Source: a virus
IMG/VR virus record: IMGVR_UViG_3300030101_000341
Span: 1 to 36,503 of that record
Length of the DNA stretch: 36,503 nucleotides
Strand: one strand, 5' to 3'
Position 1 is the first letter of the stretch, and every line of letters begins with the position of its first letter. Below, in pieces: positions 8,400 through 36,503 of this stretch. The translations under genes and the position numbers were made by a program. The notes under the pieces are model-generated. The model was not told where the DNA came from. It worked only from the letters and a program-made list of their open reading frames with translations, and did not search any database.

Positions 8400-9207
8400 A
8401 TCTACTCCATATATCGTTTAGTTGGAACATGACTTCACGTATGTCCTCTGGTGGATCACACGCGTTTGCAAATGCAATAGCTTCGTTCCTTGCATACTCT
8501 AGTGTTTCGCCACGTAATCTCATAGAGATCAACATTCTAACTAGTGTTTCGTGTCTGTTGCCTTTTGACGCTCCGTTTATGATACCGTTGCGCTTGTAAG
8601 TTGTGGTTCTCGGTAACATTCTACCGATAATCATTTTACTTTTTGGACGTTCTAATTTTAGTTTATCACGTATTTCATCTGTATGGTATGGTTTGTTTGT
8701 ATTATATTCCTCTACAATTTTTATAGGATATGGTTTGTGTTTGTTGTGATAAAAACCAGCTACCCTCATAACTCTTGGCAAGTCTTTCACGACTGGATCG
8801 CTGTTAAATTTTAATGCTAACGCCTCTTGATACAGTACAAAACTTTGCAATGGCATGTCATCAACTAACCAGTAACAATGATATTTATCTGGTGATGTGT
8901 TGACAATCAAATTTGGCTGTAACTCAAATCTCGTAGGCAATGGCGTACCGTCTAAATCTATAAACACTGCACGTACAGACTTTATATTCTTTGTCGTCCT
9001 ACCATGCAGATCTGTACGGTTTACTGTAAAAAATACACCAGCACCTTTTTTGTTTAGATCCTGCAACTTGTCTACATGCTCGTCAATCGTGCCATGCAGT
9101 TGCTTTATTAATCTTTTGTCTAGTCCTTTATCGCCAAAAGTCTGGAAACTATGATGTGTGCCAAAACTATTTAGAAACCTAGAGTATTGTTTAATCTGAT
9201 CTGTCAT
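8362..9207 (-). CDS. RepB-like DNA primase / replication initiation protein
   Basis: A 281-aa protein starting at ATG 9205-9207 (a GTG lies one codon earlier). It contains FFTVNRTDLHGRTTKNIKSV then AVFIDLDG (residues about 80-87), the acidic metal-binding motif of the RepB-like/AEP primase domain, and KYHCYWLVDD, where the His-containing strand completes the site. Such primases start DNA synthesis at plasmid and phage origins. The C-terminal third is helical (RHETLVRMLISMRLRGE), resembling the primase-C helical domain. It lies between the DUF1376 gene and the helicase, overlapping both. Confidence 0.82.
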   Translation of the reverse strand: MTDQIKQYSRFLNSFGTHHSFQTFGDKGLDKRLIKQLHGTIDEHVDKLQDLNKKGAGVFFTVNRTDLHGRTTKNIKSVRAVFIDLDGTPLPTRFELQPNLIVNTSPDKYHCYWLVDDMPLQSFVLYQEALALKFNSDPVVKDLPRVMRVAGFYHNKHKPYPIKIVEEYNTNKPYHTDEIRDKLKLERPKSKMIIGRMLPRTTTYKRNGIINGASKGNRHETLVRMLISMRLRGETLEYARNEAIAFANACDPPEDIREVMFQLNDIWSRYEAKRIPTKSNE

Positions 9208-9562
9208 CACCCCACCTTACTTCTGCGCCTTTTTTACCTGCTTTTTGTTTCTTCAATCTGTTCTGTGTTTGTCGCTCACGTTCTTCCTCTGCTTGCACAC
9301 AGTGTATGTAACCATCTTCTACGTAAAATAAATGTGCCATGTTGGGCCATGCACGTTTCATAACACCGCTAGTTGTATTGCAGATCTTTGCTAATACTTT
9401 GTTGTCGTGTGGAAGTTTGTAGACACGCCAGCAGTGGCAATACAATAGTATGTATATACCTTGCTCGTCTAATGACATGTTTAGTCTATTTGTGTCGCTG
9501 ATCCAATCGTTCGCGTAAAATTGAAACGCTGGCGATTGCTCGTCATTGTATCTTTTTCTCAT
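9191..9562 (-). CDS. DUF1376 (YdaU-like) replication protein
   Basis: A 123-aa protein whose first 80 residues show the DUF1376 pattern: PAFQFYANDWISDT, then LNMSLDEQGIYILLYCHCWR, then KIC with a helix ending in WPNMAHLF. This winged-helix-like domain is typical of phage replication initiators, where it often fuses to a DnaC-like loader; here it stands alone with a charged, Glu/Arg-rich tail. It is the first gene of the replication operon, with GAGG seven bases before ATG 9562 and a strong promoter upstream. Confidence 0.88.
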   Translation of the reverse strand: MRKRYNDEQSPAFQFYANDWISDTNRLNMSLDEQGIYILLYCHCWRVYKLPHDNKVLAKICNTTSGVMKRAWPNMAHLFYVEDGYIHCVQAEEERERQTQNRLKKQKAGKKGAEVRWGDDRSD

Positions 9563-22400: not shown

Positions 22401-25400
22401 TGCCATTAGTTCTGGAGAGCTTTCCCTGTATTTTACAAAATCTGGATCTTGCCTCAACATTTCTTGTTTGTCGTAAGGTTTCCATTTTTCTGATAAAGAT
22501 ATTAATTCTTGTGTTATCTCTTGTCTGTTTACTAGTCCTCTAGCACGCATTTCAGCTTCGACTTTTCTAGCAAATATTTCTTCTGCTTTTGCCATTATTT
22601 CGGCAGTATGTTTTACATTAGCTCCAGAGTATTTATCTACTAATGGTTTTATGTATGGATCAATAATACCTTTGAAAGCACTTTTTAATATTTGTGTTCT
22701 TAGTGCGTCTGACAAATTTAAAAATTCATCATAAAAATTAGGATTTAATTTAGATCTAAACTCTGGATCATTAATAATACCTTTAATGTCATCTGCTGTA
22801 ATTCCTGTTTCTTCTTCTAAATCTTTTTTGTTTTTTTCGTATAACTTTTCCGCGTCTGCTTCTGCCTCTTTTTTTATACGTGCTATTTCTTTTTTATTCA
22901 ATGGACTAGCACCATCTGCTTTTGCACCTATCCATTCGTTCATATAACCTTTTAATCCAGCTAATCTTCCTAATAAATTATCTTTGTCTTTTATGACACC
23001 TTCTGGCAATGAATCAATTAAATGACCTATTTCGTGTGCAAGTGTCATAGTAAATTTTTCTGGATCTTCTTGCAAAGCACGTACTACTTGTATTCTTAAT
23101 TCTTTATCAGTCCTTTTTTTGTTACTGCTTGCGTATCTAAAAACACCAAGCGCTTCGCCTTTTCCAGTTCTTATTACGTTTTTTAATTGAGGAGTGTTTT
23201 TTGTTAAAGTTTTTACCAATGCAACAAGATCTACTACCTCTAAACCTTTTGCACTATTAAAAAATCTTTCGTATGATTCAGCAGTTCTGTATGATGGATC
23301 TTCTTCTTTGAATATAGATTCTGGCTCATCTGGCATTTTTCTTTGGCCAATATCAGCATTTGTGTTGTTGGTATCTGGAAATACTTTATCATCACGTTTT
23401 GTGTATCTTTCGTAATAAGTATTAGCTTGTGTGTTTATTTTCGGATCTACTTTTTTTGCTTGTAATACAGCAATAACTTTATTTGCAACTTCGTCATAAG
23501 CTATTAATAAATTTTTATCATAAGCTAATGTTGCTTTTGCTTTTACCTCAAAATTATCTAAAGTGTATGTATACTCTTTTATATTTGCATACATTTGTGC
23601 TGGCACTTCAACAAAATCACCTTTGTTTGTTCTTAGTATAATTTTATTGTAAGGACTGCCGCTTGATCCATTTTTTCTAATGCCAAAAACTTCATCTACT
23701 TTTGACATTTTAGATAAGTTTAATTTTTTAAAATATGTATTAATAACGTTGTCTGTTTTACCTGCTTTCTTTTTAGTGCCACCTAAATAGTTTTTCATTT
23801 CTGCAAATAACTCTGGGTATGCTTTTTTGTTTATAAAATATTTAGACGTACCAAATGTTTCAGTACCGCTAACAACATAATCATTGGTTGTATAGTTTGT
23901 AATTTCACCTTCTATTTCATTTAAGTTTCTTTTTAAAAATTTGTCATCTTTTCTGGTTTCTACTATATCTCTATTAAAAGCTCCATCTTTTTGTTTTATC
24001 TGAAAATCCTTTTCAACTTTTGGTTGTATGTTAATGCTTTCTCCAACAATTTCTATATCAAGTTTGTCTTTTGGCATTGCCATGTAAGAAGATTCTTCAG
24101 GTATATCTATTCTTTCTATATCTGATTCTTTAGATTTGCCTCGTTGCTCTTCAATCTGTTTTTTAGTTTTTGCAATTTCTATTTCTTTTTTTATTATTCC
24201 TTCAACTCTATTTCCCAGATACAGTGAATCTGGGTTTTCTATAAGTTCTAAATCTTTTTCTTGTCTGCGTAAATCTTCTTCTAATTCTTTTAATTTTGGA
24301 TCATTGTTGCGTTCAACTTTAATTACTGTTTCTCCATAATCTGTTGTTTGTCTATCAACAATTTTGTAACGCTCTGTTGAGCTTTCTGTTTTTATGTCAG
24401 CTCCTATATTATTTTTTGGTGGATCAACAATTTTAGTGTTAGTTGCGTCAGACAATCCAGATACATAAGCTTCGTTCATATCAATTAATATTTGTGGCGC
24501 ATCCATATCTGTATCTAATAAATCAGCTAAAATTTCTGGATTTTCATCTGCTGCTTTTCTTAGATTTTGTGGTGGTATACCGTATTTTTTATAAATATTG
24601 TATAGTTTATTAGTGCCTCGTGAAACACCATGTATTCCATATATCATAACTGCAGCGTTTAAAAAATCTTTTCTGCTAGGGACTTGACCTTCTAATGCAG
24701 ACAAAACAGAAACCATTGTTACAGTTTCAACTCCTAGTGCTGCAGTATTACCATATTTTCTTCTTGTAAAAACACCAGCTGTTCCTGTTGCTGCACCTGT
24801 AACTGTAAATTTACCACCAGATATTGCTGTTTTTACATTAATTAATTCATTCATAAAGTCTTGAAAATCATCTACTTCATCATTTAACATAGCTCTCATG
24901 TAAACATCTCTAAGTGTTTCTGGCACTGCAAAACCACCTGTAATAGCAATTATTGGTGTTGCTGGCCCTCCTGCTACCCCACCAACAAAACCTAATGTTG
25001 CTCCTGCTGCTATGGCAGGTGAATCACCTGCAACTTGTGCAGCCATTGTAATTAAATCTTGACCGAAATTTTTTGTTTGAAACATAAAAGAATTTTCTAG
25101 TGCTTCTTTATTTGTAAAACCATATTCGTTTTTTTGTTGTTGAAAATCTAAAAATAATCCCATAACAGAAGTTTGAAATCCATTACCGAAAGGACTATAA
25201 GCACCTTGACCACCACCTGCTTCAATAATTTTTTTACCAATATTACTTTTTTCTAGTGCATTTGTAATTAATCCATCATCTTTAAAAGTTGACAGTCCAG
25301 CCATAACATATTCATAATCAAATGTTGACCAAGATCCATAGTATTCTTTTGCTTTTAAAAATTTATCTGGATTGTCAATTAATGAAGTATCATAATTTTC

Positions 25401-26504
25401 TAACAATAAAGTTTCTAATGCTTCTACGTTTCCTTGTGATGCAGCTACAATTAAATCAGGGGCATCTACATTTTTTGTCAGTTTTATTAAAGCAAGACTT
25501 CTTTGCACATCTACAGGTAATACGTCAGCTTTTTTATGACCATAGGCTTTATTCCACCATGTTGGTCTTTTGAAATCTGGATCGTAAGAAACCATAATAT
25601 CATTTAAGTCATTTAATAACCCTATCATTTCATCATTTCTTATTTGAAATAATCCGCCTGCACTGTCGTCTGCGCTTCTTTTGTTTGTATTATCGCTAAC
25701 TATTCCAGACAAAACGCTTAGATTAAAATTTAATGTATTTATTTCATTTTCATTTAATGCGTAATTTATTTGTGTATCATTCATTACACTTTTTGTGTAT
25801 AATCCAGTAGAAGCTGTTTCATCAAGCACTTTTAATTTAGCTCTTTCTTCTTCTTCTCTTTGCTTTCTTAATCTTTGTGCGTTTATTATAACCTCTACTG
25901 GTTTGCCATCTATTTCTAGCTTTCCACCATTTTTAGAATAATCTTGTTTTTGTTGGTCAGTTAAACGATCAAAATAAATCTTGCCTTTAGACAACATAAT
26001 TTTAGCAGCAGTATCCTCAACCTCTTGCCGTATCGCTTCATCTTTAATATTTTTGTATAAATCTATGTTATATGATGTTGCGTTTGTACCATCTATAATA
26101 GGTTTGACATATTCTTCTTCTGTATTACTTTCTGTAGAATTTGCTTTTGTAACTGGTATTTTATCATCAGGATTTACTACAGTATCTTTTTCTGGGACTA
26201 TTTCTTGTGAGGTATCAACATTTTGGCCTTCTTTTACTTTTTTTTCTAATACATTAATGTCATCTGTATTTACTTGATCGTCTGCATTGACAGATTGCAA
26301 CATACCTGTTGAGTTGTTATTTTCATCTCCTATTAATGATTTTGATATTGTTGATGATTTTTCTATACCAAAAAAATTATTTATTTGATAATCACTAAAA
26401 CCAACGCTTTTGTATCTATCGCGTTCATTCTCAATGTGTTCAATAATTGATTCTTCAGTAAAACCAGCAGCTCTTAATTGTGCTGCAGTAACTCTTCTAC
26501 TCAT
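19473..26504 (-). CDS. Giant internal virion protein with transglycosylase-like and metalloprotease motifs
   Basis: 2343 aa, nearly twice T7 gp16 (1318 aa) and in the same place. The N-terminus has two GF(T/S)-type short repeats (residues 13-47). SAGGLFQI (281-288) resembles the soluble lytic transglycosylase motif. A Gly/Ala hydrophobic stretch lies near 488-525. HEIGH (1157-1161) is a zinc-protease HExxH. The region from roughly 1780 to 2100 (NPVFWNKEIVKDARATV..., LFSNAFTQGWRRDL) resembles the polyvalent-protein LPD38 type. It is probably ejected with DNA to cross the envelope. Domain calls are from motifs only. Confidence 0.85.
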   Translation of the reverse strand: MSRRVTAAQLRAAGFTEESIIEHIENERDRYKSVGFSDYQINNFFGIEKSSTISKSLIGDENNNSTGMLQSVNADDQVNTDDINVLEKKVKEGQNVDTSQEIVPEKDTVVNPDDKIPVTKANSTESNTEEEYVKPIIDGTNATSYNIDLYKNIKDEAIRQEVEDTAAKIMLSKGKIYFDRLTDQQKQDYSKNGGKLEIDGKPVEVIINAQRLRKQREEEERAKLKVLDETASTGLYTKSVMNDTQINYALNENEINTLNFNLSVLSGIVSDNTNKRSADDSAGGLFQIRNDEMIGLLNDLNDIMVSYDPDFKRPTWWNKAYGHKKADVLPVDVQRSLALIKLTKNVDAPDLIVAASQGNVEALETLLLENYDTSLIDNPDKFLKAKEYYGSWSTFDYEYVMAGLSTFKDDGLITNALEKSNIGKKIIEAGGGQGAYSPFGNGFQTSVMGLFLDFQQQKNEYGFTNKEALENSFMFQTKNFGQDLITMAAQVAGDSPAIAAGATLGFVGGVAGGPATPIIAITGGFAVPETLRDVYMRAMLNDEVDDFQDFMNELINVKTAISGGKFTVTGAATGTAGVFTRRKYGNTAALGVETVTMVSVLSALEGQVPSRKDFLNAAVMIYGIHGVSRGTNKLYNIYKKYGIPPQNLRKAADENPEILADLLDTDMDAPQILIDMNEAYVSGLSDATNTKIVDPPKNNIGADIKTESSTERYKIVDRQTTDYGETVIKVERNNDPKLKELEEDLRRQEKDLELIENPDSLYLGNRVEGIIKKEIEIAKTKKQIEEQRGKSKESDIERIDIPEESSYMAMPKDKLDIEIVGESINIQPKVEKDFQIKQKDGAFNRDIVETRKDDKFLKRNLNEIEGEITNYTTNDYVVSGTETFGTSKYFINKKAYPELFAEMKNYLGGTKKKAGKTDNVINTYFKKLNLSKMSKVDEVFGIRKNGSSGSPYNKIILRTNKGDFVEVPAQMYANIKEYTYTLDNFEVKAKATLAYDKNLLIAYDEVANKVIAVLQAKKVDPKINTQANTYYERYTKRDDKVFPDTNNTNADIGQRKMPDEPESIFKEEDPSYRTAESYERFFNSAKGLEVVDLVALVKTLTKNTPQLKNVIRTGKGEALGVFRYASSNKKRTDKELRIQVVRALQEDPEKFTMTLAHEIGHLIDSLPEGVIKDKDNLLGRLAGLKGYMNEWIGAKADGASPLNKKEIARIKKEAEADAEKLYEKNKKDLEEETGITADDIKGIINDPEFRSKLNPNFYDEFLNLSDALRTQILKSAFKGIIDPYIKPLVDKYSGANVKHTAEIMAKAEEIFARKVEAEMRARGLVNRQEITQELISLSEKWKPYDKQEMLRQDPDFVKYRESSPELMADFMMAILTRPRWTMLHAPKATQLFYNHMYTRPDVRFAYERTQNILQAPKSERYGQFFVDMANMFSDSNQKLLEAKTNAYRESKNVYDTFMIHYVDTAGWFLNRKSGGGKAFGFDNIMRNRWMDEATMAVDAKLKAYQYRPVVLESYITQMGKILTKLEKSGRGDIEQLGTALLLRNLANSTQRSKVANPTGMWAMLERDADGKAFAAKHKDKLRNPAEAYEILIKDNPLLDELVEEFYKVRKEYVIPLFRESKAFNKKQLEMLENNLEYVNYNVTEQAIKVMQESGGNKTLTAAFMKPTIGTLQDIINPFQSTIEKDLLIIGELKRNALIHDMANWMIQNKKMLEDFGSAEMQKLVPNWKDRIIQKAKTKDEKGTLAPAPLGMETVSFLSGGKYVHYYFNKQAAIAFKRNPEQYVGFMEWISTGNAFLRGIFTQYNPVFWNKEIVKDARATVTNLPKATFFFGKDTAYVPTLIKSLKPAWKSVFGEGDDVTRMFNREGYWLPITDGYRTNAGRKHLKYRNKQGELQGDLYYREQIEAKMGMRTREKFYEKVFGPLYDYIGKIAIFYDRANKLGGYTQAKKMIDNGTIPPMTRDELYLRTVSDFGSPPFGLHGQLHPITNNLLLFSNAFTQGWRRDLGVIKGDPVDILGKHMKYQILPKMVEYLAKIGVLGGYLEAVYGGVREYDKLNYHIIPLGFTSTGRSYYLRIPMDETARFFAGLFFTTADAIGGGGKIRDILNVGTETLPSFSPVIQFLSNTYKVMVGGENPVDPYTQTKILDEDVFNSDLHLRKVTDYLKYQFDNNIGGTVGFQFKSDNLEELASELEEVLNFPIIGRQIQNYLMVGNDPKEVAARERVRDLTTAEATDRVIYKDALVKLTDPYAMESFTPRELEMLVKNSKYIKSNSVVKRALVRAFGGPDYVEYYLQANKKEQLAILIRFLEPDMSIHGEGASNIFSEIYQQIKDSGGVENVLQNVIE

Positions 26505-28341
26505 TATTTTGACCTAAATTTTTTTTAAATGTTAATGAGCTAACATCTACAGTATCTGGGAAATATTGTATGCCAAACGGTGTGCTAATAACTCCAACTC
26601 TATCAACATATTCTTCGATAGTTTCACCATCTCTTGCAGCGTATTCAGTTGGTATTGTTGCATTTAGTGTATTTAAATATAATGCTGGTTTTATTCTAAA
26701 TTCGTTATCTCCAAAACCTAAATACTCTTTCTCCTTTAACATCTCTTGTGCTTCTTGTTCTGCCGCACTTTCTATTGCCTCAAATTTTTTATTTTCATAG
26801 ACTTCTATTATATCATCTACAATGTAATTATCGCTTGCTACATTTGTTAACAAGTCATCTATCGGTATACCTTCTTTTACTGCTCCTTCTACTATTTCGT
26901 TCATGTTGTTTACTGCTTCATATATTAGTAAATGATCTGCATTTGAATCTAACAGAGCCATCATACTGGTCATTCTATCTGCTGGAGCGGTTCCTGTGTC
27001 TTGTTGTATTTCTTCCATAAGTTGAAACAAATCTTGATTTCCTAATCTTTTTGCTATAGTTCTTGCTGCTGCTATAGTTTTCTTTACGTATATTTTACCT
27101 TTTTCTCTTTGCACATTTTCTGCTCTATTTAGCATAGAATTGTAAGTTTCTTGATCTATAAGATTTTGTATGTACGCATTACTTATAAGGGCCATTTCTT
27201 CTGGATCGTTGTAAGAAATAGCTCCTGAATCTATTAAATTATTTAATACAACTTCTGTGTTTCTACCTGCCTGTGTATCTACATAAGGTTGATCCATATT
27301 TGTTTGTAATGCTAAATAATCATTAACTAGTTGGTCTTTTCTAGCTGGTGTTAAATCTGAATCTCGTACACGATCAATATAATTTTCATCTAATTTTTTG
27401 CTTTGTTTGAAGTCTATTAATTCGTTTGTCAAAGTAGAGTTATCTGCATCTGCTAATCGATTTCTTTCTGCTGTATCATTTTGTGATTGTGTGTTTGCTA
27501 ATGTTGTATAATTTGTTATTAACTCTTGCCTTAATTCACTTGTAATAGGAACACTATTACCGTCAACATCTGTGAAAGTAAAATCTTCATCTCCTAATGT
27601 AGATGCTATTTCTCTAGCATTTAATGTTGTATCACCAAATTCATTTACATAGGTTGGCAAAGTTCCGTTCCCTACTGCAAATAATGCTAATTGTTCGTTT
27701 GTACGTTTTTTTACATTTTCAAATGACTTATTGATTTCAGCTGGCTCAAAAATCTCATTGTCTTTGTGTTCATTGTATATAGCTTCATAAGTTCTGTAGA
27801 GCGATTGTGCATGTGCAACAGTAGTTGCATTGCCTATGTTTCTTATTGCATCACTAGTTGTTGTTTCGTAAGCTGTTATAGTTGTGTGATTAAATTTCTT
27901 TTTTGCTATTTTATTTATTTCAATTTTGCCTGTAACAAATTGTGTTGACATATCTGCAAGGTGTGCGTTCCATGCTATTTCATCAACTACACCATTTAAT
28001 GTAAAGTGTTTTTTCTTTAATTCTTTTCTCCATACTTCAACATCTTTTTCGTATAAAGATCCGTACATTTCATAATCATCTCTAGCCTCGAAACGTTGTT
28101 TTTGATCTTCAATCCATTGATTTGTTTCAGCTTGCGCTAACAATCCTTTGTTTCTTATTTCTTGATCTCTAATTTTTTGTTGTAGTGCAATTTTTTGTTC
28201 ACCAAATTGATTTAGGTTTTGTTGTATTTCTTTTCCTAAATTCATTAGTGCATTAGCACCACTAGTGCCAGTTCTTATATTTCTGCCACTTCTAATTGGT
28301 GATGTTCCTAGCGATCCTTCGTATCTTGGTATTCTAACCAT
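26497..28341 (-). CDS. Internal virion protein (T7 gp15-like position)
   Basis: A 614-aa, mostly helical, charged protein beginning MVRIPRYEGSLGTSPIRSGR. A conserved-looking N-terminal helix (LGKEIQQNLNQFGEQKIALQ) leads into long helical stretches without membrane segments or catalytic motifs. T7 gp15 is 747 aa and also helical, and forms the ejected core with gp14 and gp16. The call rests on order: gp14-like gene upstream, giant gp16-like gene downstream (8-base overlap). Sequence similarity to gp15 itself cannot be judged by eye. Confidence 0.72.
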   Translation of the reverse strand: MVRIPRYEGSLGTSPIRSGRNIRTGTSGANALMNLGKEIQQNLNQFGEQKIALQQKIRDQEIRNKGLLAQAETNQWIEDQKQRFEARDDYEMYGSLYEKDVEVWRKELKKKHFTLNGVVDEIAWNAHLADMSTQFVTGKIEINKIAKKKFNHTTITAYETTTSDAIRNIGNATTVAHAQSLYRTYEAIYNEHKDNEIFEPAEINKSFENVKKRTNEQLALFAVGNGTLPTYVNEFGDTTLNAREIASTLGDEDFTFTDVDGNSVPITSELRQELITNYTTLANTQSQNDTAERNRLADADNSTLTNELIDFKQSKKLDENYIDRVRDSDLTPARKDQLVNDYLALQTNMDQPYVDTQAGRNTEVVLNNLIDSGAISYNDPEEMALISNAYIQNLIDQETYNSMLNRAENVQREKGKIYVKKTIAAARTIAKRLGNQDLFQLMEEIQQDTGTAPADRMTSMMALLDSNADHLLIYEAVNNMNEIVEGAVKEGIPIDDLLTNVASDNYIVDDIIEVYENKKFEAIESAAEQEAQEMLKEKEYLGFGDNEFRIKPALYLNTLNATIPTEYAARDGETIEEYVDRVGVISTPFGIQYFPDTVDVSSLTFKKNLGQNNE

Positions 28342-28350
28342 GTTTTACCT

Positions 28351-28836
28351 CTAAAATATACCTGACATAGGAGTAGACATAGGGCCAGAAGCATAAATGC
28401 CACTACCAAATGTACTTGCTTGTTGCATCCTTGACGCTTGATTAGCACCTTGCATAAATCCACCTAATATACTAGATCCTGCATTATAGGTTGTTGCTGC
28501 TATTTCTCCTGCTAACTCTGCATCTCTTGTCTTACCCTCTACCCATAATCCTTTTTCCATGTACCATAAATCTGTTTCAAACTCTTCCATGTCAGCGTTC
28601 ATAGCAATCAGACTACTACCAGTTCCTACTACTATTCCAGCAGCCGCACCTCTTGCTCTTTGTTCACTTAATAACTTTCTTTGTTCAGTTAATCTTTTTT
28701 GTTTTTCATAATGATGATTTAATTCTGATTCGTATTTTTGCCAAGCTGCGTTTGCTTTCATCATTTGTATTTGTTGTCGTGCAGCACTCATTGTAAATGC
28801 TGCGTTTATTAATGATCCAAATAATCCAAAAAACAT
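28351..28836 (-). CDS. Internal virion protein (T7 gp14-like)
   Basis: 161 aa. A short hydrophobic N-terminus (MFFGLFGSLINAAFTMSA) precedes a helical region (YESELNHHYEKQKRLTEQ) and a Gly/Ala/Ser segment (GAAAGIVVGTGSSLIAMN), then a low-complexity Gly/Ser/Met tail. This is the usual pattern of the small internal core protein of podoviruses (T7 gp14, 196 aa), which inserts into the outer membrane on ejection. It lies between tail tube B and the gp15-like gene. Confidence 0.78.
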   Translation of the reverse strand: MFFGLFGSLINAAFTMSAARQQIQMMKANAAWQKYESELNHHYEKQKRLTEQRKLLSEQRARGAAAGIVVGTGSSLIAMNADMEEFETDLWYMEKGLWVEGKTRDAELAGEIAATTYNAGSSILGGFMQGANQASRMQQASTFGSGIYASGPMSTPMSGIF

Positions 28837-28845
28837 TTTATTCTC

Positions 28846-31308
28846 CTAATCGCTTGTTACTAGTGTACCAGTTATTCCTAGCACTGTCATTGGTAAAGGT
28901 TGTGTTTGCTCAATCGTTACTTGTCCGTCTGTATCCCATCCTAGATTAGTTACTTTTTTATCTCCTGTAAACTCTGGGATGTTTTGACCGACTGGTGTAG
29001 ATGATGATCTAAAAGGTATCTGGTCGCCATTTATTGTTACACCTACAGTTTCGTGTAATCTCACTGCTATTTCGTTAAATCTTTTTGGCCTGTTTTGTGC
29101 AGTGCCAGCATTTGCTCCTGCTTCTATTTTCATAGTTACTAATTTACTAGTATAACCTAAACCAACCTCTACTAAATGCTGCCCACTTGTTGATGGTAAA
29201 GTTACTGATATTTGTCCGTTACTTACAGTTTGATTTGGGTACACAGCATCACCTACAAGTATTTGTACGCTTTCACCCTCTAAGTGATCCAGATTTGTCA
29301 ACGTGCCATCAGCACCATTTATCAAACCACTTAATGAGCTATCCATATTTAGTGTGCTATCTAAATATTCTACATATTGTACTCTTGATCCATCTATAAT
29401 TCTTTCCACAATAACGTAGACTTCATTTTCAGTATCACTAGAAACAGATGCTATAGATTTAACTTTTGCATGATTTTTAAATATGTGTGTGCCAGATCCA
29501 ACAGCGGTTAGTTGTTGCACTGTCCTGTCAATTGCTTGTTGATAAGTCCTAGCAAGATTTATTGTGTTTGCGTCTATAACATACACATAATATGTCCTGC
29601 CATCATCTAATCCTGTTATAGCAGTGTTGCCATTAGCATCATATACAACTGCATCTCCTGTTGTGTAACCGTGTGATGATATTGTTATCTTGCCATTTTT
29701 TAATGTGTCTGATCCACTCGCTGTTATTGCAGTTCCTGCGTTAAAAGAGTGTTTGACAAATCCACCTAGTATGTGTCTGTGCCATGCTATAATATCTTCT
29801 TCACGTTTATATGTCATACCTAGCAATATTCCATCATCACGCACTGCCCAATAAATACTTTCTGGCTCTTGCGCCCATGCTATGTCATATACACCTGTGC
29901 CAGTAACATGCTCTGCAAGTATTGTCATGTCTGGTGCAGAATATGCGTCATCATCAAATCTGTACGCAAACTCTCTAATTTTTTTTCTTTGTTTTTGCAC
30001 GAATAAAATTACGTTGCCAATTTGCACTGCCTCTGTTGTGTTGCCTCCATAAGTTGTTTGTAATGTTATATTAACATTATCTGGTTTTAGTGGCTCACCT
30101 ACAGGCTTGCCTACTCTAAACTCACCACCTGCTGTACCTACAATTAAATCTCTTGCAGGTGCTAACCATCTTATAACATTTACTTTGTTTGCAGCAATCG
30201 TGTATATAAAAGCGTCAGCCGCAGCTGATGTACCAACATCAAAGTTTGTATACAGTCCTGATTGTGATGCAAATATAGTTTGTGGAAATGATGTTGTGCC
30301 AGCAAATACTAACCTTTGTTCAAAAAATGTAACTGTTCTAGGGAATCCTAGCGTTGATACAAATGTTCCTAGTTGCCAATCTGTTGTAGCTGTGCTAGCA
30401 GATAATGTTGCTAGTATTTCTATTGTAACATTTTGTGCATCTGTAAACGCTGTAATTTTAGCATGACCACTATGTAATTTTACTAACCTACCTACATCTG
30501 TTGCAGCAAATAAATCAGCTGATGCAACCAACGCAACACCTGTAGCTATTGCTGTAGATGCAGGATTTAGTGTTGTAGATGTAGTATTAGCGTCTAAATA
30601 TGGGCCATTTTCTAACACTTCATTAGTTATGCTCCATGATGTATGACCAGTTCTTGTAAGTTTTTGCGGTGCTAATGTTTCATGCACAATATACATAATA
30701 TCTGCTGATTGTGTATGTTGTATTTCATATAATATAGATTCTGTAATAGTAGTTGTAATTTCGTATATTTTATTAGCGACACCTGCAGATCCGTATGCAG
30801 TATGGCTAGTGCTGTTTATGTTTACACCAGCTAGTGTTTGTAATTCAAAAGTGTTTGTAGTTTTGTTTGCAACTTTAAATCTTTTTCCGTTTACTTCTGT
30901 CATGCCTACAACACCTGTAATTATAACCTCATCACCGTTTGTATAACCATGTGATGTTGCAGTTACTACAGCAGGATTAGCTTGTGTTATACCACTTATA
31001 GTTTTGTTAGATTCTGTAATTATACCTTCGTCTTTATAAAATCTTATGTATTGGTGTCCAAACTCTAATATGTAAGTTTGTTCATCATTAAACTCAAAAG
31101 GTATTAGTCTTGTTGTTTTTGTGTGATCTTTAACTGGGCCTATATATCTTGTGCCATATCTTCGTGCTGCTCCGCCTTGTGGAAAAACAGTCATGTTCTC
31201 TAATGTTTCTACACCATTAGCGTATTTTTTAAAGTCAATTTGTCCAGCTAATTTAGGACTTAATTCACCAGCAGTAAAATTTGATTGAAAAGGGTGTACT
31301 CTTGCCAT
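28846..31308 (-). CDS. Tail tubular protein B (nozzle)
   Basis: 820 aa, close to T7 gp12 (794 aa). The N-terminus shows the family signature FTAGELSPKLAGQIDFKKY, followed by GVETLENMTVFPQGGAARRYGTRYIG. A repeated module, GYTNGDEVIITGV (about residue 120) and GYTTGDAVVYDANG (about 545), marks two small beta domains inserted in the body. The protein forms the end of the short tail below the tail-tube A ring. The gene overlaps its tail tube A neighbour at the start codon. Confidence 0.92.
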   Translation of the reverse strand: MARVHPFQSNFTAGELSPKLAGQIDFKKYANGVETLENMTVFPQGGAARRYGTRYIGPVKDHTKTTRLIPFEFNDEQTYILEFGHQYIRFYKDEGIITESNKTISGITQANPAVVTATSHGYTNGDEVIITGVVGMTEVNGKRFKVANKTTNTFELQTLAGVNINSTSHTAYGSAGVANKIYEITTTITESILYEIQHTQSADIMYIVHETLAPQKLTRTGHTSWSITNEVLENGPYLDANTTSTTLNPASTAIATGVALVASADLFAATDVGRLVKLHSGHAKITAFTDAQNVTIEILATLSASTATTDWQLGTFVSTLGFPRTVTFFEQRLVFAGTTSFPQTIFASQSGLYTNFDVGTSAAADAFIYTIAANKVNVIRWLAPARDLIVGTAGGEFRVGKPVGEPLKPDNVNITLQTTYGGNTTEAVQIGNVILFVQKQRKKIREFAYRFDDDAYSAPDMTILAEHVTGTGVYDIAWAQEPESIYWAVRDDGILLGMTYKREEDIIAWHRHILGGFVKHSFNAGTAITASGSDTLKNGKITISSHGYTTGDAVVYDANGNTAITGLDDGRTYYVYVIDANTINLARTYQQAIDRTVQQLTAVGSGTHIFKNHAKVKSIASVSSDTENEVYVIVERIIDGSRVQYVEYLDSTLNMDSSLSGLINGADGTLTNLDHLEGESVQILVGDAVYPNQTVSNGQISVTLPSTSGQHLVEVGLGYTSKLVTMKIEAGANAGTAQNRPKRFNEIAVRLHETVGVTINGDQIPFRSSSTPVGQNIPEFTGDKKVTNLGWDTDGQVTIEQTQPLPMTVLGITGTLVTSD

Positions 31309-31886
31309 TATGTTCTAAAGTCCGTAAATGTTGTTGAAACAAAGTCATCTACAAATCCTTCCATTCCATCAACACTTCTGGCTTCAGATAGTTTATCTCT
31401 ATATAGTTTTTCCATTTGTGATTGCAACTGCACACTGCCTGTTATTGGATAAGCAAGATCGGCAGATAATTTTGCTGTTAATGTTTCTGTAAACATTGAA
31501 TCAAATAATGTAGGATTTGTAATTTTTGCTATGTAAAGTATTTTTGCTGTGCTTTCATCTGTCAACAATACTCTACCGTTTGTAGCGTCATTCTCTATTT
31601 TAAATATATAATCAACAAATTCCATTTCTAATACACGCAGACAATATGGATCTGTTGGCAGTGCATACATGTAGTCGAATCCGTATGCTGGAGTTGTGCT
31701 AAGTTGTGCTAATGTAGCTCGTGTAATAGCAAAATTCCACGGATGTGAACGCAATGTAAGATCTCTTGCATCTTCGTAAAACGCATTACACAATCTCGCT
31801 CTTTCTGTATCATCTGTTAAGCTAGTGATAGGATCATCACCTAATCGCCTTAGTGCGTTACTGCATATAGAAACTTCTGTTACCAT
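31308..31886 (-). CDS. Tail tubular protein A (adaptor)
   Basis: 192 aa, against 196 for T7 gp11. The N-terminus VSICSNALRRLGDDPITSL, then ARLCNAFYEDARDLTLRSHPWNFA, is the clear family pattern of podovirus adaptor proteins. It forms the ring between portal and nozzle. Two adjacent ATGs exist (31889 and 31886); I chose the second because the AAAGGTG site is six bases from it. A G/C-run hairpin lies just upstream. Confidence 0.93.
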   Translation of the reverse strand: MVTEVSICSNALRRLGDDPITSLTDDTERARLCNAFYEDARDLTLRSHPWNFAITRATLAQLSTTPAYGFDYMYALPTDPYCLRVLEMEFVDYIFKIENDATNGRVLLTDESTAKILYIAKITNPTLFDSMFTETLTAKLSADLAYPITGSVQLQSQMEKLYRDKLSEARSVDGMEGFVDDFVSTTFTDFRT

Positions 31887-31904
31887 CATACACCTTTGTA
31901 GTTA

Positions 31905-31927
31905 GGGGGGATGTTACTCCCCCCCCC
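31905..31927 (-). terminator. G-run/C-run hairpin between head and tail genes (possible attenuator)
   Basis: Six G and nine C flank an 8-base loop (AGTAACAT on the minus strand), giving a stem of six G-C pairs. No U-run follows on the transcribed strand, so full termination is unlikely. It could slow polymerase, protect the 3' end of capsid messages, or lower tail-gene expression relative to capsid. Confidence 0.5.
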
Positions 31928-31939
31928 ATGTTGTTGTTC

Positions 31940-32404
31940 TTAGTCAAGAACGTAGTACATAGTCAATTCAATTGTACCTGTACCAGCAGCTCCACCCATA
32001 ACAACAGTAATAGGAATACCATCTTGGTTAGCGTCTACGACACTGTTTCTTCCTAATGCTGATGTTGCTGCAACTGCCACCGTAGTGATAGATGTAGAAG
32101 CAGCTGCTGCAAAGTATTCGTCAACATCTAATGCAACTGTTGCACCTGCAGAGCTTGTATAAGCTGCGTGTCCAACAGATAGTGTTGTACTACTACCTAG
32201 AGCATCATGGGTAAGTGTACCTTCTAATATTCTAGCACCGTTAGGTAGATTGAACATTTCAATAACATCTCCTGATGCAAGGCTTGATGCTTCGTATAGT
32301 GCATAAGCAATACGTAGCCTTCCGCCTTTTTCATTCGTGTTAATTTTTTCAGAAGGGTTATTCTGCGACCATTTTGTTTTTTGTACTGAATAAACTGTAG
32401 CCAT
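31940..32404 (-). CDS. Capsid decoration-like protein
   Basis: 154 aa beginning MATVYSVQKTKWSQNNPSEK. The rest is rich in Ala, Ser, Thr, Gly and Val with alternating hydrophobic residues, suggesting a beta-rich fold, and has no catalytic motif. Its place directly after the major capsid gene and before the tail adaptor, with a good spacing (12 bp), is where decoration or minor head proteins are usually coded. It might instead be a head fibre or stabiliser; I cannot assign a named family with certainty. Confidence 0.7.
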   Translation of the reverse strand: MATVYSVQKTKWSQNNPSEKINTNEKGGRLRIAYALYEASSLASGDVIEMFNLPNGARILEGTLTHDALGSSTTLSVGHAAYTSSAGATVALDVDEYFAAAASTSITTVAVAATSALGRNSVVDANQDGIPITVVMGGAAGTGTIELTMYYVLD

Positions 32405-32416
32405 TTTTCAATCCTC

Positions 32417-33277
32417 CTATTCTGTGCAAGCTATTTCAACGACTTTTTCGTCCTCGATACGTGTAGCACCGATAGTCATTGATAGGAATACTTGCGTTGC
32501 ATAGTTCTTATCTGCACGTTCGCTGATGCGAGTGTTCACATCTTGACCGACAGCAAGTCCTATTCCTGATGAAGTGAAAGCTAACACTTGGCGATTACCA
32601 TCACTGTCAGTACCTAGACGTTGAGTTCTGATAAAATTAAAACCTAAGAAAGTGTTAATTTCGCCTTGCACAAGTGCTTTCACACTAGAAAAATCTGCTG
32701 AAGTTACTTGTGTTACTCCTAACAAATCAGTTAATTGGCCTGCAGTAACCACGCAAAATCTTGGCTCATCTGGATCAACATCATTAGCATCAAGAATTTC
32801 TTTAGCTGATAATAGTTTTGCCAGTGTTAAACCTGCAGATCCGTGAGCAACTTTTTGACCAGCTGGAAGAGCCACACTAGTTCCGCCACTTACACCGCCA
32901 AAAGCTGTGCCTGTAGCTGCACTAATAATTGAATCATCCATTGCTCGGCCCATTGCCCATGCGCCTGCCATTGCGTATTCTGATTGAGGCGAAATAAGCA
33001 TACGTACCTTATCCTCGTTATCAATCAAGTCTGCCCAGTCGTAATCGTCCATAGTTACTTTACGTCTGGAGTGTGGTGTATCCATTCTTGGTGTGTCAGC
33101 ATGGCGTGATGTTCTACGCTCTGCTGCAGCAGTACCGATTCTTTCAAAGAAATGAGCTTTACCAACAACCGTTTCTGATCTAACCGCATCTCTTAATCTT
33201 GAACCTTTTTGCTGTGCCAAGTGGAACACGTTGCTTTTGTATTGCTCGACAAAAGCTGTAGTGATTTCTATTGACAT
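32417..33277 (-). CDS. Major capsid protein
   Basis: 286 aa, beginning MSIEITTAFVEQYKSNVFHL. The RDAVRSETVVGKAHFFERIG and TPRMDTPHSRRKVTMDDYDW segments match the capsid proteins of marine podoviruses and related phages, which have the HK97 fold but are shorter than T7 gp10 (345 aa). It self-assembles on the scaffold encoded upstream. AGGAGA lies six bases before the ATG. The gene has its own promoter and a long, structured leader, fitting the high output a capsid protein needs. Confidence 0.9.
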   Translation of the reverse strand: MSIEITTAFVEQYKSNVFHLAQQKGSRLRDAVRSETVVGKAHFFERIGTAAAERRTSRHADTPRMDTPHSRRKVTMDDYDWADLIDNEDKVRMLISPQSEYAMAGAWAMGRAMDDSIISAATGTAFGGVSGGTSVALPAGQKVAHGSAGLTLAKLLSAKEILDANDVDPDEPRFCVVTAGQLTDLLGVTQVTSADFSSVKALVQGEINTFLGFNFIRTQRLGTDSDGNRQVLAFTSSGIGLAVGQDVNTRISERADKNYATQVFLSMTIGATRIEDEKVVEIACTE

Positions 33278-33455
33278 AATAGTTCTCCTGTTAAGTTAAA
33301 GTTAAAACGGTTTTTATCCTGTAACACAGGGAAACCTTACAGATAACGCACTGTCATGCGGATTTTAAGGCATCATACCCACAGTGCAAGTTATCCGTCT
33401 GGGCCTGCAAATGTTAAACTAGTATAACATGAAACATTTAGATTACAAATCTTAA
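33278..33455 (-). promoter_or_regulatory. Structured 178-nt leader of the major capsid gene
   Basis: The gap between scaffold and capsid genes contains a promoter (33421-33448), a long hairpin (33339-33398: 16 pairs with one TT bulge, one G-U) and a second hairpin (33309-33336: CCTGT/ACAGG inside GGTTT/AAACC). The second ends about 20 bases before the AGGAGA ribosome site. The structure could stabilise the capsid mRNA or control its translation. Confidence 0.6.
33421..33448 (-). promoter_or_regulatory. Promoter of the major capsid gene
   Basis: On the minus strand TTGTAA (33443-33448), a 16-bp spacer and TATACT (33421-33426) match sigma-70 at 9 of 12 positions, with TG two bases before the -10. 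It lies just after the scaffold stop and points at the capsid gene. Confidence 0.62.
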
Positions 33456-34277
33456 TTATCGTCCGTAAACTTTTTCATGTAGTTGTCTGACTTTTTCTAC
33501 AGCGGCTCTATGATCTGGATGTGATCCGTTGAAATACGGATGTTCTGGATTAGAATATATATCAGAAATTTCATCTTGTGCGTCTAGTCGTGAAGTTGCT
33601 AGATTATTGTTCTGTGTATTCTGTGTCATATCCTCTGTTACTTCTGCACCTAATCTTGCAAATAATTTTACTACAGCAGGATTGTTACCAGCTGTTGTAT
33701 TCATTAGCTCCATTATTTCTGGATCTCCATACACTTGCAATGCTCTTTGTGCAGCTCGTACATTTTTATCGTAATCAAGGCCCCATTCTTGTTTCAGCAC
33801 ATTTTCTGTTTCTTCTTTTTGCGCTGCCAGTATTGACGGTTGATTATCTATTTCAGCTGTAACCATACTTGCTTGGTATTCCATTAGTGCATTTACTTGA
33901 TTTTGGCTTAATCCAATATTGTGCGCTACGTTTCTAAACTCGCCCATAATATTATCATTAAAATAAGCATCCATACCTTCTGGTACTTTCATCTCGTATC
34001 CTGCTGGCTCATCTGGTCTGCCTAATTTTCCATACAATTCTTTGTATTCATCATCTGTTTTTGGTAGTGGTATTCTACTGCCCATTTGTTTTTGTTGATG
34101 AACAACTGTTTTTGCAAGACTTTCTACGTCTTTAAATTGTGCTATTGTAGGATCATTAGCAAGATCAGATGGTAGTGATGATTTCCAATCTAGGTTATCG
34201 CTATCAACTTCAGATCCAAGTACAGTGCTGTCTTGGGTTGCCTGTGTTTCCATATCGGCCTGTTCTTCTGGGTACAT
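33456..34277 (-). CDS. Capsid assembly scaffolding protein
   Basis: 273 aa, acidic at the N-terminus (MYPEEQADMETQATQDSTVL) and helical in the middle, with a Gln-rich coiled-coil-like region and a short basic C-terminus (VEKVRQLHEKVYGR), where scaffolds touch the capsid. The segment LGRPDEPAGYEMKVPEGM is a recurring scaffold feature in podoviruses. It lies immediately before the capsid gene, the standard order. It should be absent from mature virions. Confidence 0.85.
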   Translation of the reverse strand: MYPEEQADMETQATQDSTVLGSEVDSDNLDWKSSLPSDLANDPTIAQFKDVESLAKTVVHQQKQMGSRIPLPKTDDEYKELYGKLGRPDEPAGYEMKVPEGMDAYFNDNIMGEFRNVAHNIGLSQNQVNALMEYQASMVTAEIDNQPSILAAQKEETENVLKQEWGLDYDKNVRAAQRALQVYGDPEIMELMNTTAGNNPAVVKLFARLGAEVTEDMTQNTQNNNLATSRLDAQDEISDIYSNPEHPYFNGSHPDHRAAVEKVRQLHEKVYGR

Positions 34278-34505
34278 TTACTCTTTCCTTTGTTCTGTTA
34301 AACGTGTTATGCGTAAGTAAAGGCTACGCTGACCTTCTTTAAAGGCTGTGTGGTACGGATCTTGTTCATAACTTAATCTGTCGCCATAAGCAGCTTTCAA
34401 ATCCTCTAATACTTTTTTGCCTGCGTCAGTATCAAAACATTGTCTGTAGTTTTCTACGAGTTCGATATGATCTCTTTCGTAATCATCCATTTGATCTATT
34501 GTCAT
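34278..34505 (-). CDS. Bbp19-like small head protein
   Basis: 75 aa. YRQCFDTDAGKKVLEDLKAA and TAFKEGQRSLYLRITRL match the pattern I know for Bbp19-type proteins, which lie between portal and scaffold genes in many podoviruses. The function is not established; a connector or assembly role is likely. Its start overlaps the portal stop by four bases, and the scaffold start follows directly. Confidence 0.72.
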   Translation of the reverse strand: MTIDQMDDYERDHIELVENYRQCFDTDAGKKVLEDLKAAYGDRLSYEQDPYHTAFKEGQRSLYLRITRLTEQRKE

Positions 34506-36178
34506 GTTAATGCTTCTGCTTGTGCCTGTGCTTCTTGTATAGCTCTTTGTGCGTCTGGATCAGCAAGTGCTTTAGCTGCGTCTGCCTGCGACTGTGTAGT
34601 TTGCGCTGCCTGCTGCTCTTGCATCATTTGCTGTTGTAGCATTTGTTGCTGTGCTTGTGCTTGTCGAGATTCTTCTACATCATCTCTGCTAACCAGTATA
34701 CTGTTTGGTACACCTAGTAGTTTTGCTCTCATTCTTACAGCTTCGTCATGGTTTATAATTTCCATAACAGCAGGATTTATTTGTGCAATGTTCATAGCAA
34801 GCTGATACAATCTGTCTATTGCATTAGCTTCTTCCATTCTTTGAGATCTTGCTAGTGGCCCAACGTACTCAATGTCCATCTTTGTTTCCTGTATGCTATC
34901 AGGGGGAGGGAGTAACGCCCCTGCTCTTAGCATAATGCCAAAAATACGTTCAATTAACGGATTTAGAAACTCTGATTGGAATCTACCTAGCGTTGGGCCA
35001 AGCAATCTTTGCATAAGCTCATAACGAACTTGCACTTCAGTGGCAGTCATTTGAGGGCCATCCTGCAACTGCAACTGATCTGAATAATAGGCTTGCCTTA
35101 TAGCTGTACGTAATTGGGTTTCTTTCATGTCAGTTATTTGCCAATTAGTGCCTATCTGTAACGGTTTGATTGCACCATCATTTCTGATAACAGTTATACC
35201 AGCTGGTGTTGTCCTAACACGACCTATAACACCGTCATCTTGTACTAATAATGGTGGATCTATAGCTTTGGCCCATGCTTTCAGTCCTATCTCTACAGCC
35301 TTGTTTAATGTTTTTATATCTGGCAAAGCATTATATGATGGGCTGCGACCATATGTTTCACCAGTCGCTTTTGCCCACCGAGGTACGAGATATGGAAATT
35401 CGTTGTAACCACCAGATCGGACAATCATCTTGTCATCTTCACAAGCATGGCAACTATGAAACTTTAACTTAGTATTACTTTCACCTGTCATGCGTGTATA
35501 ATCTTCTGCTGGCTCAACAGCATGGATAAAAACAAACTCTTTTTCTGGTTTCGAGTGCGCTGCCTCTTTTACCTTTTGACCGAGATTGTCCTCACCAAAC
35601 TCTTGCAAGGCTTGTCGTGCTGTCATTTTGTATTTCCGATAGACAGTATCAACATAACCATTTACGTTTTCTTGTATGTAAAATTCATTTATGTGTAGTG
35701 TTTTAAAATGTATGCCACCCTCTGCAAAACCTTTTGCGTTTTCTTCTACGAACAAACATCCTGTACCGATAGATGTAAGATCAAGATACATCTCGTGTAC
35801 TTCTGTGTTAAAGTTCGCGTCATTAAATGCGTCATACATGCGTCTAGCTGTATCTTCTAACCACAGCTGTGCATCTCTTTGTTCATTTAATTCTTTGTCG
35901 CGTAGTTTTATAGAAAACCACGGTAGTGATGGTGATGTAAGTGTGCCTTGTAAACTTGCAGCAAGTAAAGTGTTAGCTGTTATAGCTGTACTATCGTAAA
36001 GTATTTCTGTTCTTTTTTCGCCTTTTGCACGCACCAGTGTTACGTCTGCTTTTCTTGGCATGACATAATCTAGTATTTCTTGCCAATGATCTTCCCAAGT
36101 TTCTCTTGAGCTAGTCATTGCGCTCATACGTTTTTTTAGATAATCGTATGGTGCAAGTGTTTCTTTTGCAACAGCCAT
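34502..36178 (-). CDS. Portal (head-to-tail connector) protein
   Basis: 558 aa, near T7 gp8 (536 aa). The N-terminus YDYLKKRMSAMTSSRETWED, the LPWFSIKLRD segment, and the LRTAIRQAYYSDQLQLQDGP, then MTATEVQVRYELMQRLLGPT stretch are the family signature. The C-terminal 60 residues are a Gln/Ala-rich helical tail (barrel-like). Twelve copies form the ring through which terminase packages DNA. Its start overlaps the upstream 70-aa gene by three bases. Confidence 0.95.
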   Translation of the reverse strand: MAVAKETLAPYDYLKKRMSAMTSSRETWEDHWQEILDYVMPRKADVTLVRAKGEKRTEILYDSTAITANTLLAASLQGTLTSPSLPWFSIKLRDKELNEQRDAQLWLEDTARRMYDAFNDANFNTEVHEMYLDLTSIGTGCLFVEENAKGFAEGGIHFKTLHINEFYIQENVNGYVDTVYRKYKMTARQALQEFGEDNLGQKVKEAAHSKPEKEFVFIHAVEPAEDYTRMTGESNTKLKFHSCHACEDDKMIVRSGGYNEFPYLVPRWAKATGETYGRSPSYNALPDIKTLNKAVEIGLKAWAKAIDPPLLVQDDGVIGRVRTTPAGITVIRNDGAIKPLQIGTNWQITDMKETQLRTAIRQAYYSDQLQLQDGPQMTATEVQVRYELMQRLLGPTLGRFQSEFLNPLIERIFGIMLRAGALLPPPDSIQETKMDIEYVGPLARSQRMEEANAIDRLYQLAMNIAQINPAVMEIINHDEAVRMRAKLLGVPNSILVSRDDVEESRQAQAQQQMLQQQMMQEQQAAQTTQSQADAAKALADPDAQRAIQEAQAQAEALT

Positions 36179-36390
36179 TACTGTGATCCTGTTCCTAATA
36201 CAGTTTTACCAACATTTGCTTCGTCAGTTACGCCTTGTCCGCCTGTCATAATACTATAACCTAGACCTGATTTACCTGCCTTTATCATTCTTTGTCTTTC
36301 TTTTTCTAACGCTGCTTCTTTTTCAGCAGTTCTATCTGTAACAGACGTATCAATTTGTGGCGGCATTTCTGGTTTCATCTTCATACCCAT
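36178..36390 (-). CDS. 70-aa protein sharing a C-terminal motif with the 85-aa protein
   Basis: AAGGAG precedes ATG 36390. The N-terminus is charged and helical (AEKEAALEKERQRMIKAGKS), and the last 26 residues read YSIMTGGQGVTDEANVGK then TVLGTGSQ. The same IMT...EAN(V/I)G(K/R)TVLGxGSQ tail occurs in the protein at 509-766. The stop overlaps the portal start, so it is co-translated with the portal and may bind it. No named family is known to me. Confidence 0.75.
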   Translation of the reverse strand: MGMKMKPEMPPQIDTSVTDRTAEKEAALEKERQRMIKAGKSGLGYSIMTGGQGVTDEANVGKTVLGTGSQ

Positions 36391-36503
36391 TTACATTCTC
36401 CTTTTAACATTCCGTATAAAGCTGCATTTACATACTTATTATTTACTAACATTGCTTGTCTAATTACACCTTCTTTTACAAAACCAACACCTTGCAGTAA
36501 TCT
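36381..36503 (-). CDS. GNAT-like N-acetyltransferase, C-terminal 41 codons (runs off the right edge)
   Basis: This is the 3' end of the gene that begins at 405 on the circular unit. The part unique to this edge reads KGECKWV and then TGA. The stop overlaps the start region of the next gene (ATG at 36390) by ten bases, so the two are probably translationally coupled. Upstream sequence is missing only because the window ends. Confidence 0.7.
   Translation of the reverse strand, partial: RLLQGVGFVKEGVIRQAMLVNNKYVNAALYGMLKGECKWV
36405..36503. repeat. Right copy of 99-bp terminal direct repeat
   Basis: Exact copy of bases 1-99. Removing one copy gives a unit of 36,404 bp in which the acetyltransferase-like gene is intact. 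All coordinates near either edge therefore describe the same locus twice. Confidence 0.95.

Follow-up and report, generated by a model that had tools for sequence, protein, structure and literature searches.

Does the gap that precedes the major capsid protein (MCP) gene of this virus hold a conserved RNA and, if so, what might that RNA do for the capsid message? The window, by which we mean the whole stretch of DNA analysed, is a 36,503-base virus record with its late genes on the - strand, in the order portal-like (head-tail adaptor), small ORF, scaffold/protease-like ORF, MCP, and tail genes. The original prediction, read from this one sequence, placed a promoter and a leader RNA with two hairpins in a 178-nt gap (33278-33455), and exactly 178 nt do lie between the ORF at 34277-33456 and the MCP ORF at 33277-32417. 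The nearest named phages include Pelagibacter phage Baldr EXVC032P, with an MCP 77.6% identical to that of the window, and the Pelagibacter phages of the HTVC010P group (57-62% identical). The viruses that carry the leader described below are common in the ocean and akin to viruses that infect SAR11 bacteria. According to the available text of one report, HTVC010P-type phages rank second in abundance among the known pelagiphage groups (PMC12753301).

Some other features of these records stood out. A 2343-aa ORF of the window (19473-26504, - strand) has no PHROG match at E 0.001, and a 614-aa ORF (26497-28341, - strand) has no PHROG or Pfam match; a pattern-based scan of viral contigs returned only two relatives of the latter. 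A helicase-like protein (6915-8399, - strand) contains ResIII and Helicase_C domains and, at its C-terminus, weakly matches a TFIIB-type zinc ribbon (E 0.0037, which falls short of the cut-off), and its ORF is adjoined by that of a RepB-like primase (8362-9210). The locus tags of the Baldr EXVC032P record (OQ414636.1; L001) read EXVC031PHodr, an annotation oddity.

Upstream gaps of related capsid genes

Related loci were collected by a scan with the window's MCP protein, from which the best 80 were taken. The upstream gap is measurable in 76 of these and spans 111-209 nt in 75 of the 76; that of L076 is 29 nt, a short reading frame having been counted there. Further scans used the MCPs of HTVC010P and Baldr (best 80 rows each). 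Among the matches listed, 343 sequences have an MCP match, 339 of them with a usable start, and these yield 171 distinct leaders, those shorter than 130 nt being left out. For 101 of the 171, the best match is the MCP of the window or of Baldr. Two leaders with one motif each (L343 and L074) were excluded from both the anchored tests and the census of motifs; by eye, L074 carries a compensated C-G to G-C change in its H4 hairpin.

Anatomy of the conserved leader

From 5' to 3', leaders of this family contain an extended -10 element, a hairpin (H1), an H-type pseudoknot, an optional hairpin (H3), a further hairpin (H4), an AU-rich spacer, a Shine-Dalgarno (SD) sequence, and the ATG (Table 1). 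H1 and H4 share one motif, ordered as stem, C, CC-loop-GG, AYAA, stem. Across the family, H4 reads GGTTT-C-CC-loop-GG-AYAA-AAACC, and the pseudoknot consists of a hairpin that leads into an A-rich tract and then into 3-4 letters able to pair with the hairpin's loop. Two or more copies of NCC-loop-GGA(Y/G)AA are present in 99 of the 101 leaders. Among the 78 distinct two-motif leaders, the letters CCC/GGAYAA occur in 70 H1 and 77 H4 copies, and 22 of the 156 motif loops are GNRA tetraloops. The two motifs are found once each in the window (33391-33404 and 33314-33332), against chance expectations of 0.30 and 0.26. H3 is often 6 bp long with a CGT-type loop elsewhere and is missing from part of the family.

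Table 1. Positions of the leader features and neighbouring genes in the window.
Feature	Position	Strand	Basis or remark
Scaffold/protease-like ORF	34277-33456	-	upstream neighbour of MCP
Extended -10 element TGtTATACT	33421..33429	-	sequence; relatives' box before H1
H1 hairpin, near expected 5' end	33385..33409	-	stem TGCAGG/CTTGCA; C, CC-loop-GG, ATAA
H-type pseudoknot	33361..33380	-	co-varying S2 partners in relatives
Pseudoknot S1	33377-33380 with 33368-33371	-	
Pseudoknot loop ATGAT	33372-33376	-	
Pseudoknot A-rich L3	33364-33367	-	
Pseudoknot S2	GAT 33372-33374 with ATC 33361-33363	-	
H3 optional hairpin	33339..33354	-	ACAG/CTGT in window
H4 hairpin	33309..33336	-	GGTTT-C-CCTGT-loop-ACAGG-ATAA-AAACC; motif copy two
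AU-rich spacer, H4 to SD	33290..33308	-	sequence; relatives
Shine-Dalgarno-like AGGAG	33285..33289	-	sequence; 7 nt before MCP start codon
Major capsid protein gene (286 aa)	32417..33277	-	phrog_3437 major head protein, E 1e-96
Long hairpin (alternative fold)	33339..33398	-	strong in window's own clade

The 108-nt leader (33305-33412) folds better than its shuffles (z -2.52; 2 of 200 as stable); the wider 221-nt region is not clearly above them (z -1.30; 20 of 200). H4 is the second, shorter hairpin of the original prediction, and it is present as described (-8.0 kcal/mol, z -1.83, 11 of 200 shuffles as stable).

Covariation beyond phylogeny

H1 was examined without an alignment, by anchoring on the motif, in 96 of the 101 leaders; three leaders with three motifs were left out here, yet kept for the phylogenetic test. 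The 54 distinct arm combinations are 81.8% paired over six positions, whereas 2000 permutations average 52.7% and never exceed 60.5%. In 400 simulations of unlinked evolution along an MCP-gene tree (67 distinct rows; 96 of 99 leaders had a full MCP), pairing reached at most 54.5% and double-changed cells at most 70, against 81.8% and 130 observed. When the partners were shifted by one base, the values were ordinary.

The remaining elements were assessed mainly on A1, a sequence-only alignment of the 34 leaders with H3, for which the simulation tree was a quick one built from the leaders themselves; A1 shifts H1 one column out of register in many rows. S2 of the pseudoknot is 94.1% paired on A1 and 14 of its cells are double-changed, whereas 200 simulations never go above 88.2% and 12; all three of its pairs show two-sided changes, and its partners include GAT/ATC, GCA/TGC, GTG/CAC, AAT/ATT, GAA/TTC, and ATG/CAT. 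Under one fixed rule, which judging by eye misread L337 and L152, 40 of 59 leaders are fully paired in S2, whereas 5000 permutations average 20.2 and never exceed 32; seven of the 66 parsed leaders were set aside and one more could not be parsed. Counting only the 17 distinct S2 combinations gives a weak test, in which eight are fully paired and 36 of 5000 permutations do as well. The S2 pairing is absent from AGTC..GACT-type leaders, which make up part of the family. S1 exceeds all simulations in pairing (82.2% against a maximum of 81.3%), but its double changes are matched by 8 of 200. H3 is 92.5% paired with 47 double-changed cells, beyond the 61.0% and 24 reached at most in 200 simulations. 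H4, 97.9% paired in the anchored set, has only five double changes, matched by 95 of 400 simulations; its helix is nearly invariant and thus demonstrates conservation rather than covariation.

A3, an alignment of 85 distinct rows fitted to the structure of R1, our covariance model of the window-type leader, has 94.2% of its cells paired and two-sided changes in 20 of 25 pairs, while partners slid by one to three columns pair at most 47.4%. Pair-by-pair tests against a phylogenetic null, which have little power here, give two pairs at E <0.05 on A1, both within the structure, and one significant pair, in H1, on the anchored set. Relative to expectation, G-U pairs have been retained far more often than A-C mismatches (127 of an expected 183, compared to 18 of an expected 83), which points to an RNA read from the sense strand. 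In the simulations, H1, S2, and H3 show compensatory changes beyond those that phylogeny accounts for, as expected of a conserved structured RNA that forms a new family.

A competing long hairpin

The other hairpin of the original prediction, with 16 pairs, is real in the window (-25.4 kcal/mol, z -3.82, 1 of 200 shuffles as stable) but is not well supported as a shared element. It is part of the window's best predicted fold (-32.6 kcal/mol) and, together with H4, amounts to -25.8 kcal/mol compared to -19.5 for the family fold, the energy of the pseudoknot being excluded. On A1, 65.8% of its cells are paired across the 34 relatives, a value reached by none of 500 shuffles and above the 54.0% maximum of 200 simulations, and its covariation score exceeds those of 500 shuffles, although the hairpin had been read off one of the aligned sequences. 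Two-sided changes occur in 5 of its 15 pairs, equal to the shuffle mean of 5.0, and double changes affect 24 cells, a count attained in 7 of 500 shuffles and in 31 of 200 simulations.

Because the long hairpin takes the 3' arm of H1 as well as H3 and spans the pseudoknot, the two folds cannot coexist. H1, the pseudoknot, and H3 beat it on every measure except the double changes of S1. Between the regions that would form it, minimum-energy structures place at least eight pairs in 14 of the 56 leaders with H3 and fewer in 42. We have therefore set it aside as a shared element, without regarding it as disproved, since it has no clear two-sided excess and excludes the better-supported fold; energy models suggest that in the window and its nearest relatives it could serve as a second state peculiar to that clade. 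Compensatory changes in homologous gaps do bear out the idea of a conserved leader RNA upstream of MCP in marine podoviruses. Of the two stems that had been proposed, H4 is nearly invariant and the long hairpin lacks a clear excess of such changes.

Promoter and spacer

On its own, the sigma-70-like site at 33448-33421 (TTGTAA, 16 nt, TATACT, with TG before the second hexamer) is no better than chance, as 42 such sites occur in 24000-36503 compared to a shuffle mean of 46.0. Among the relatives, 71 of 76 distinct upstream sequences have a box that matches TATAAT in at least five of six positions and is placed 8-22 nt ahead of H1 (200 mononucleotide shuffles average 31.9 such sequences, with a maximum of 43). 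The distance from box to H1 is 10 or 11 nt in 44 of the 76, and 66 have the extended form TGnTAnnnT. The proposed promoter before the capsid gene is thus supported by the relatives and not by the single-sequence scan. For it, as for the second hairpin, the relatives carry more of the evidence than the energetics of one sequence, because neither stands out alone. The RNA of the relatives would be expected to begin a few nt before H1, and that of the window presumably near 33414, given the usual -10 spacing.

Downstream of the fold, an SD-like match is present in 95 of 99 leaders, at a median distance of 23 nt (14-76) from H4. Spacer length differs among leaders, and the median A+T content is 82%. 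By eye, a further hairpin seems to intervene between H4 and the SD in four leaders (L049, L043, L072, and L001).

Specificity and distribution

The H4 pattern has 91 matches in viral contigs, and every one of them precedes an MCP-like ORF. In a search of 100 sources, which did not include L091, R1 matched every source once and only once (E from 7e-20 to 0.036). It also gave one match in 17 of 20 records searched whole, the misses being HTVC010P, HTVC028P, and a contig with a degraded-looking H1. The record of Baldr, a phage that infects SAR11 strain HTCC1062, is among those that carry the RNA. The H1 pattern alone is unspecific. It occurs in at least 120 stretches, 117 of which were examined; all 79 that lie before an MCP have a second motif, two are leaders cut by contig ends, and 36 are unrelated by eye. 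Rfam 15 gave no match at the gathering score in the whole window, three matches at E <=5 in the leader region (best E 0.1, all below gathering), and none at E <=0.5 in 14 related loci.

An origin in host genomes was considered and rejected: of 14 H4-pattern matches in genome contigs, only L349 is convincing by R1 (39.5 bits, E 6e-7; the next best, L352, has E 0.006). That leader (3112-3189) is on a contig filed under a Verrucomicrobia MAG (TMED56), which is probably a misbinned phage contig.

Leaders of HTVC010P-type phages

In the named HTVC010P-type isolates examined, the MCP gene comes after an additional small ORF (about 60 aa). The gap contains a CCYT/ARGG hairpin, then AGTCT-AAA-AGACT-TTTAAAT, and also a GCC-stem-G-ARAA-C hairpin within an AGAGA/TTTCT stem. 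This structure is 95.4% paired over 37 sequences (at most 56.0% with slid partners), with two-sided changes in 11 of 20 pairs compared to a shuffle mean of 4.7, and no S2 pairing was seen by eye. The corresponding pattern has at least 120 matches; among those listed, 115 lie before an MCP and five at contig ends. In three leaders (L192, L205, and L221), the ORF of about 60 aa has seemingly been lost, by eye, upstream of the leader, where there is instead a long AT-rich hairpin whose arms resemble AATCCCTT/AAGGGATT.

R1 scored in none of 71 sources with HTVC010P-type or more distant leaders, so their kinship with the window-type leader is argued from position and shared parts. By these, the two types appear related, but they are not proven homologous.

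Possible functions of the leader

The reading that we rank first, tentatively, is a 5' leader that binds a factor and thereby protects and boosts the capsid message. A promoter within the late operon would give a message whose first ~100 nt are folded almost from the 5' end, as H1, the H-type pseudoknot, the optional H3, and H4. The C/AYAA internal loops of H1 and H4 could be two docking sites for one trans-acting phage or host protein; it is from the equality of these two loops that we infer a bound factor. The folded or bound 5' end would shield the capsid message from decay that depends on the 5' end, the open AU-rich stretch and SD would be left for ribosomes, and the capsid protein, the one most needed, would be made in excess of the other late proteins. 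What sequence comparison shows is the promoter motif, the covarying fold, its position, and its association with MCP; transcription, the bound factor, protection, and the gain in output are predictions.

Several observations fit this scheme. The leader always precedes an MCP among the H4-pattern matches in viral contigs, and it covaries at the level of RNA with a bias toward G-U pairs. H1 follows closely behind the -10 box, and the fold stops before the AU-rich spacer and SD; a structured 5' end beside an open spacer would favour protection combined with good translation. The corresponding position in HTVC010P-type phages is occupied by a simpler form that also covaries. CCC/GGAYAA is near-invariant while the stem letters of H1 vary freely, which suggests recognition and not only stability. 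On the other hand, a plain mRNA stabiliser needs neither two invariant internal loops nor a pseudoknot, and a scan of 24 window ORFs did not reveal a binding partner. Also unfavourable are the window's best predicted fold, in which the long hairpin is far more stable on paper, the small extra ORF that HTVC010P-type leaders follow, and the absence of S2 pairing from the AGTC..GACT-type part of the family.

A somewhat doubtful alternative, suggested by analogy, is an antiterminator of the HK022 put type, in which the folded RNA would bind the transcribing host polymerase and make it resist pausing and termination across the virion operon. The layout resembles putL, a stem-loop RNA just downstream of a promoter, and putL RNA acts far downstream, according to the available portions of the source (PMC9378689). 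Such a device would suit phages without a polymerase of their own: none of the 24 window ORFs scanned matches an RNA polymerase, and Skadi-1, an HTVC010P-type phage, is reported in the accessible text to encode none (PMC10504331). Hiding of the ribosome-binding site (RBS) is unlikely, because a median of 23 nt separates the end of the fold from the SD and no nearby terminator was found; in the regions examined, no platform of either kind is visible, which again favours antitermination. However, the leader stands before the MCP gene and not at the head of the late block, and R1 found on HK022 (NC_002166) only one 21-nt match (E 1.8). Terminator-like sites in 24000-36503 occur at chance frequency (7 compared to a shuffle mean of 7.1), leaving a need for read-through unproven.

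Less likely still, and likewise by analogy, the leader might be a translational operator, with a phage capsid, scaffold, or single-strand binding protein binding the pseudoknot and hairpins. The bound protein would spread over the AU-rich spacer and block the RBS, so that capsid output would sense free protein or assembly. In the portions available, control of T4 gene 32 is described as using a pseudoknot at the 5' end and, after it, an open A+U-rich stretch that contains UUAAA units (PMC535899, PMC3014915). Here too an AU-rich spacer lies downstream of a pseudoknot, whose L3 is UUAAA-like. The T4 operator, as far as those texts describe it, reaches the RBS, whereas the fold here ends well before the SD; the spacer varies from 14 to 76 nt, and no candidate repressor was identified.

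A riboswitch for a small metabolite is very improbable. Aptamers often have a pseudoknot with an A-rich L3 and near-invariant letters, and the leader has all of these. Yet we saw no expression platform: the conserved fold does not pair with the SD, and no terminator stands out in the scan of 24000-36503. Moreover, all of the H4-pattern matches precede a structural gene, and there is no credible Rfam match. That the gap has no RNA function, being a DNA element or a set of chance hairpins, is scarcely conceivable, since the wider 221-nt region does fold little better than its shuffles but the idea is contradicted by phylogeny-aware covariation and by the bias of G-U over A-C.

Novelty and comparison with known systems

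No earlier description of the leader was found in the open-access literature, subscription journals being largely outside that scope; the available portions of PMC2864571 and PMC12753301 contain none, and the Skadi paper, in its accessible text, states that no terminators or ribonucleotide switches were identifiable in that phage (PMC10504331). A conserved, knotted leader without a known RNA family suggests an unstudied control of shell production. The timing and dosing of late genes in phages reported to lack their own RNA polymerase seem to have been little studied, and a covarying capsid-gene leader offers a concrete handle for telling effects on stability and translation from antitermination. 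Should its target be the polymerase or the ribosome, the leader would be a rare case of phage control by RNA alone. More boldly, and in our view rather unlikely, the leaders of the window's group and of Baldr, with a simpler form in HTVC010P-type pelagiphages, may constitute a new class of cis-acting RNA, a particle in which two identical internal-loop hairpins flank a pseudoknot and which reprograms the host RNA polymerase or ribosome for capsid production.

Among characterised systems, HK022 put, as described in the available text, is likewise a cis-acting RNA of hairpins that works away from any RBS. Its putL lies just behind a promoter read by the host polymerase, as a -10-like box precedes H1 here, and putR lies ~270 nt downstream of its promoter (PMC9378689). 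The put sites, however, stand behind early promoters and consist, in that account, of two stem-loops with a triplex, whereas the leader has a pseudoknot and a repeated C/AYAA motif and serves a late gene.

The gene 32 operators of T4, T2, and RB69 resemble it, as far as the accessible descriptions go, in an H-type pseudoknot in the leader, UUAAA-type letters, and an open AU-rich stretch; gene 32 may be the only case of a viral pseudoknot in translational autoregulation, according to the portions available (PMC3014915). Here another gene is involved, extra conserved hairpins flank the pseudoknot on both sides, the spacer lies outside the conserved element, and there is no known repressor.

The 5' stabiliser of E. 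coli ompA combines a hairpin near the 5' end of the RNA with an unpaired leader and an SD before the gene of a highly made protein. In the phage leader, by contrast, motif letters and a pseudoknot are conserved, and the arms of H1 covary across a phage group. In T7, a private promoter and leader (phi10/gene 10) precede the capsid gene of a podovirus; that promoter belongs to T7's own polymerase, whereas the one seen here is of the sigma-70 type with an extended -10.
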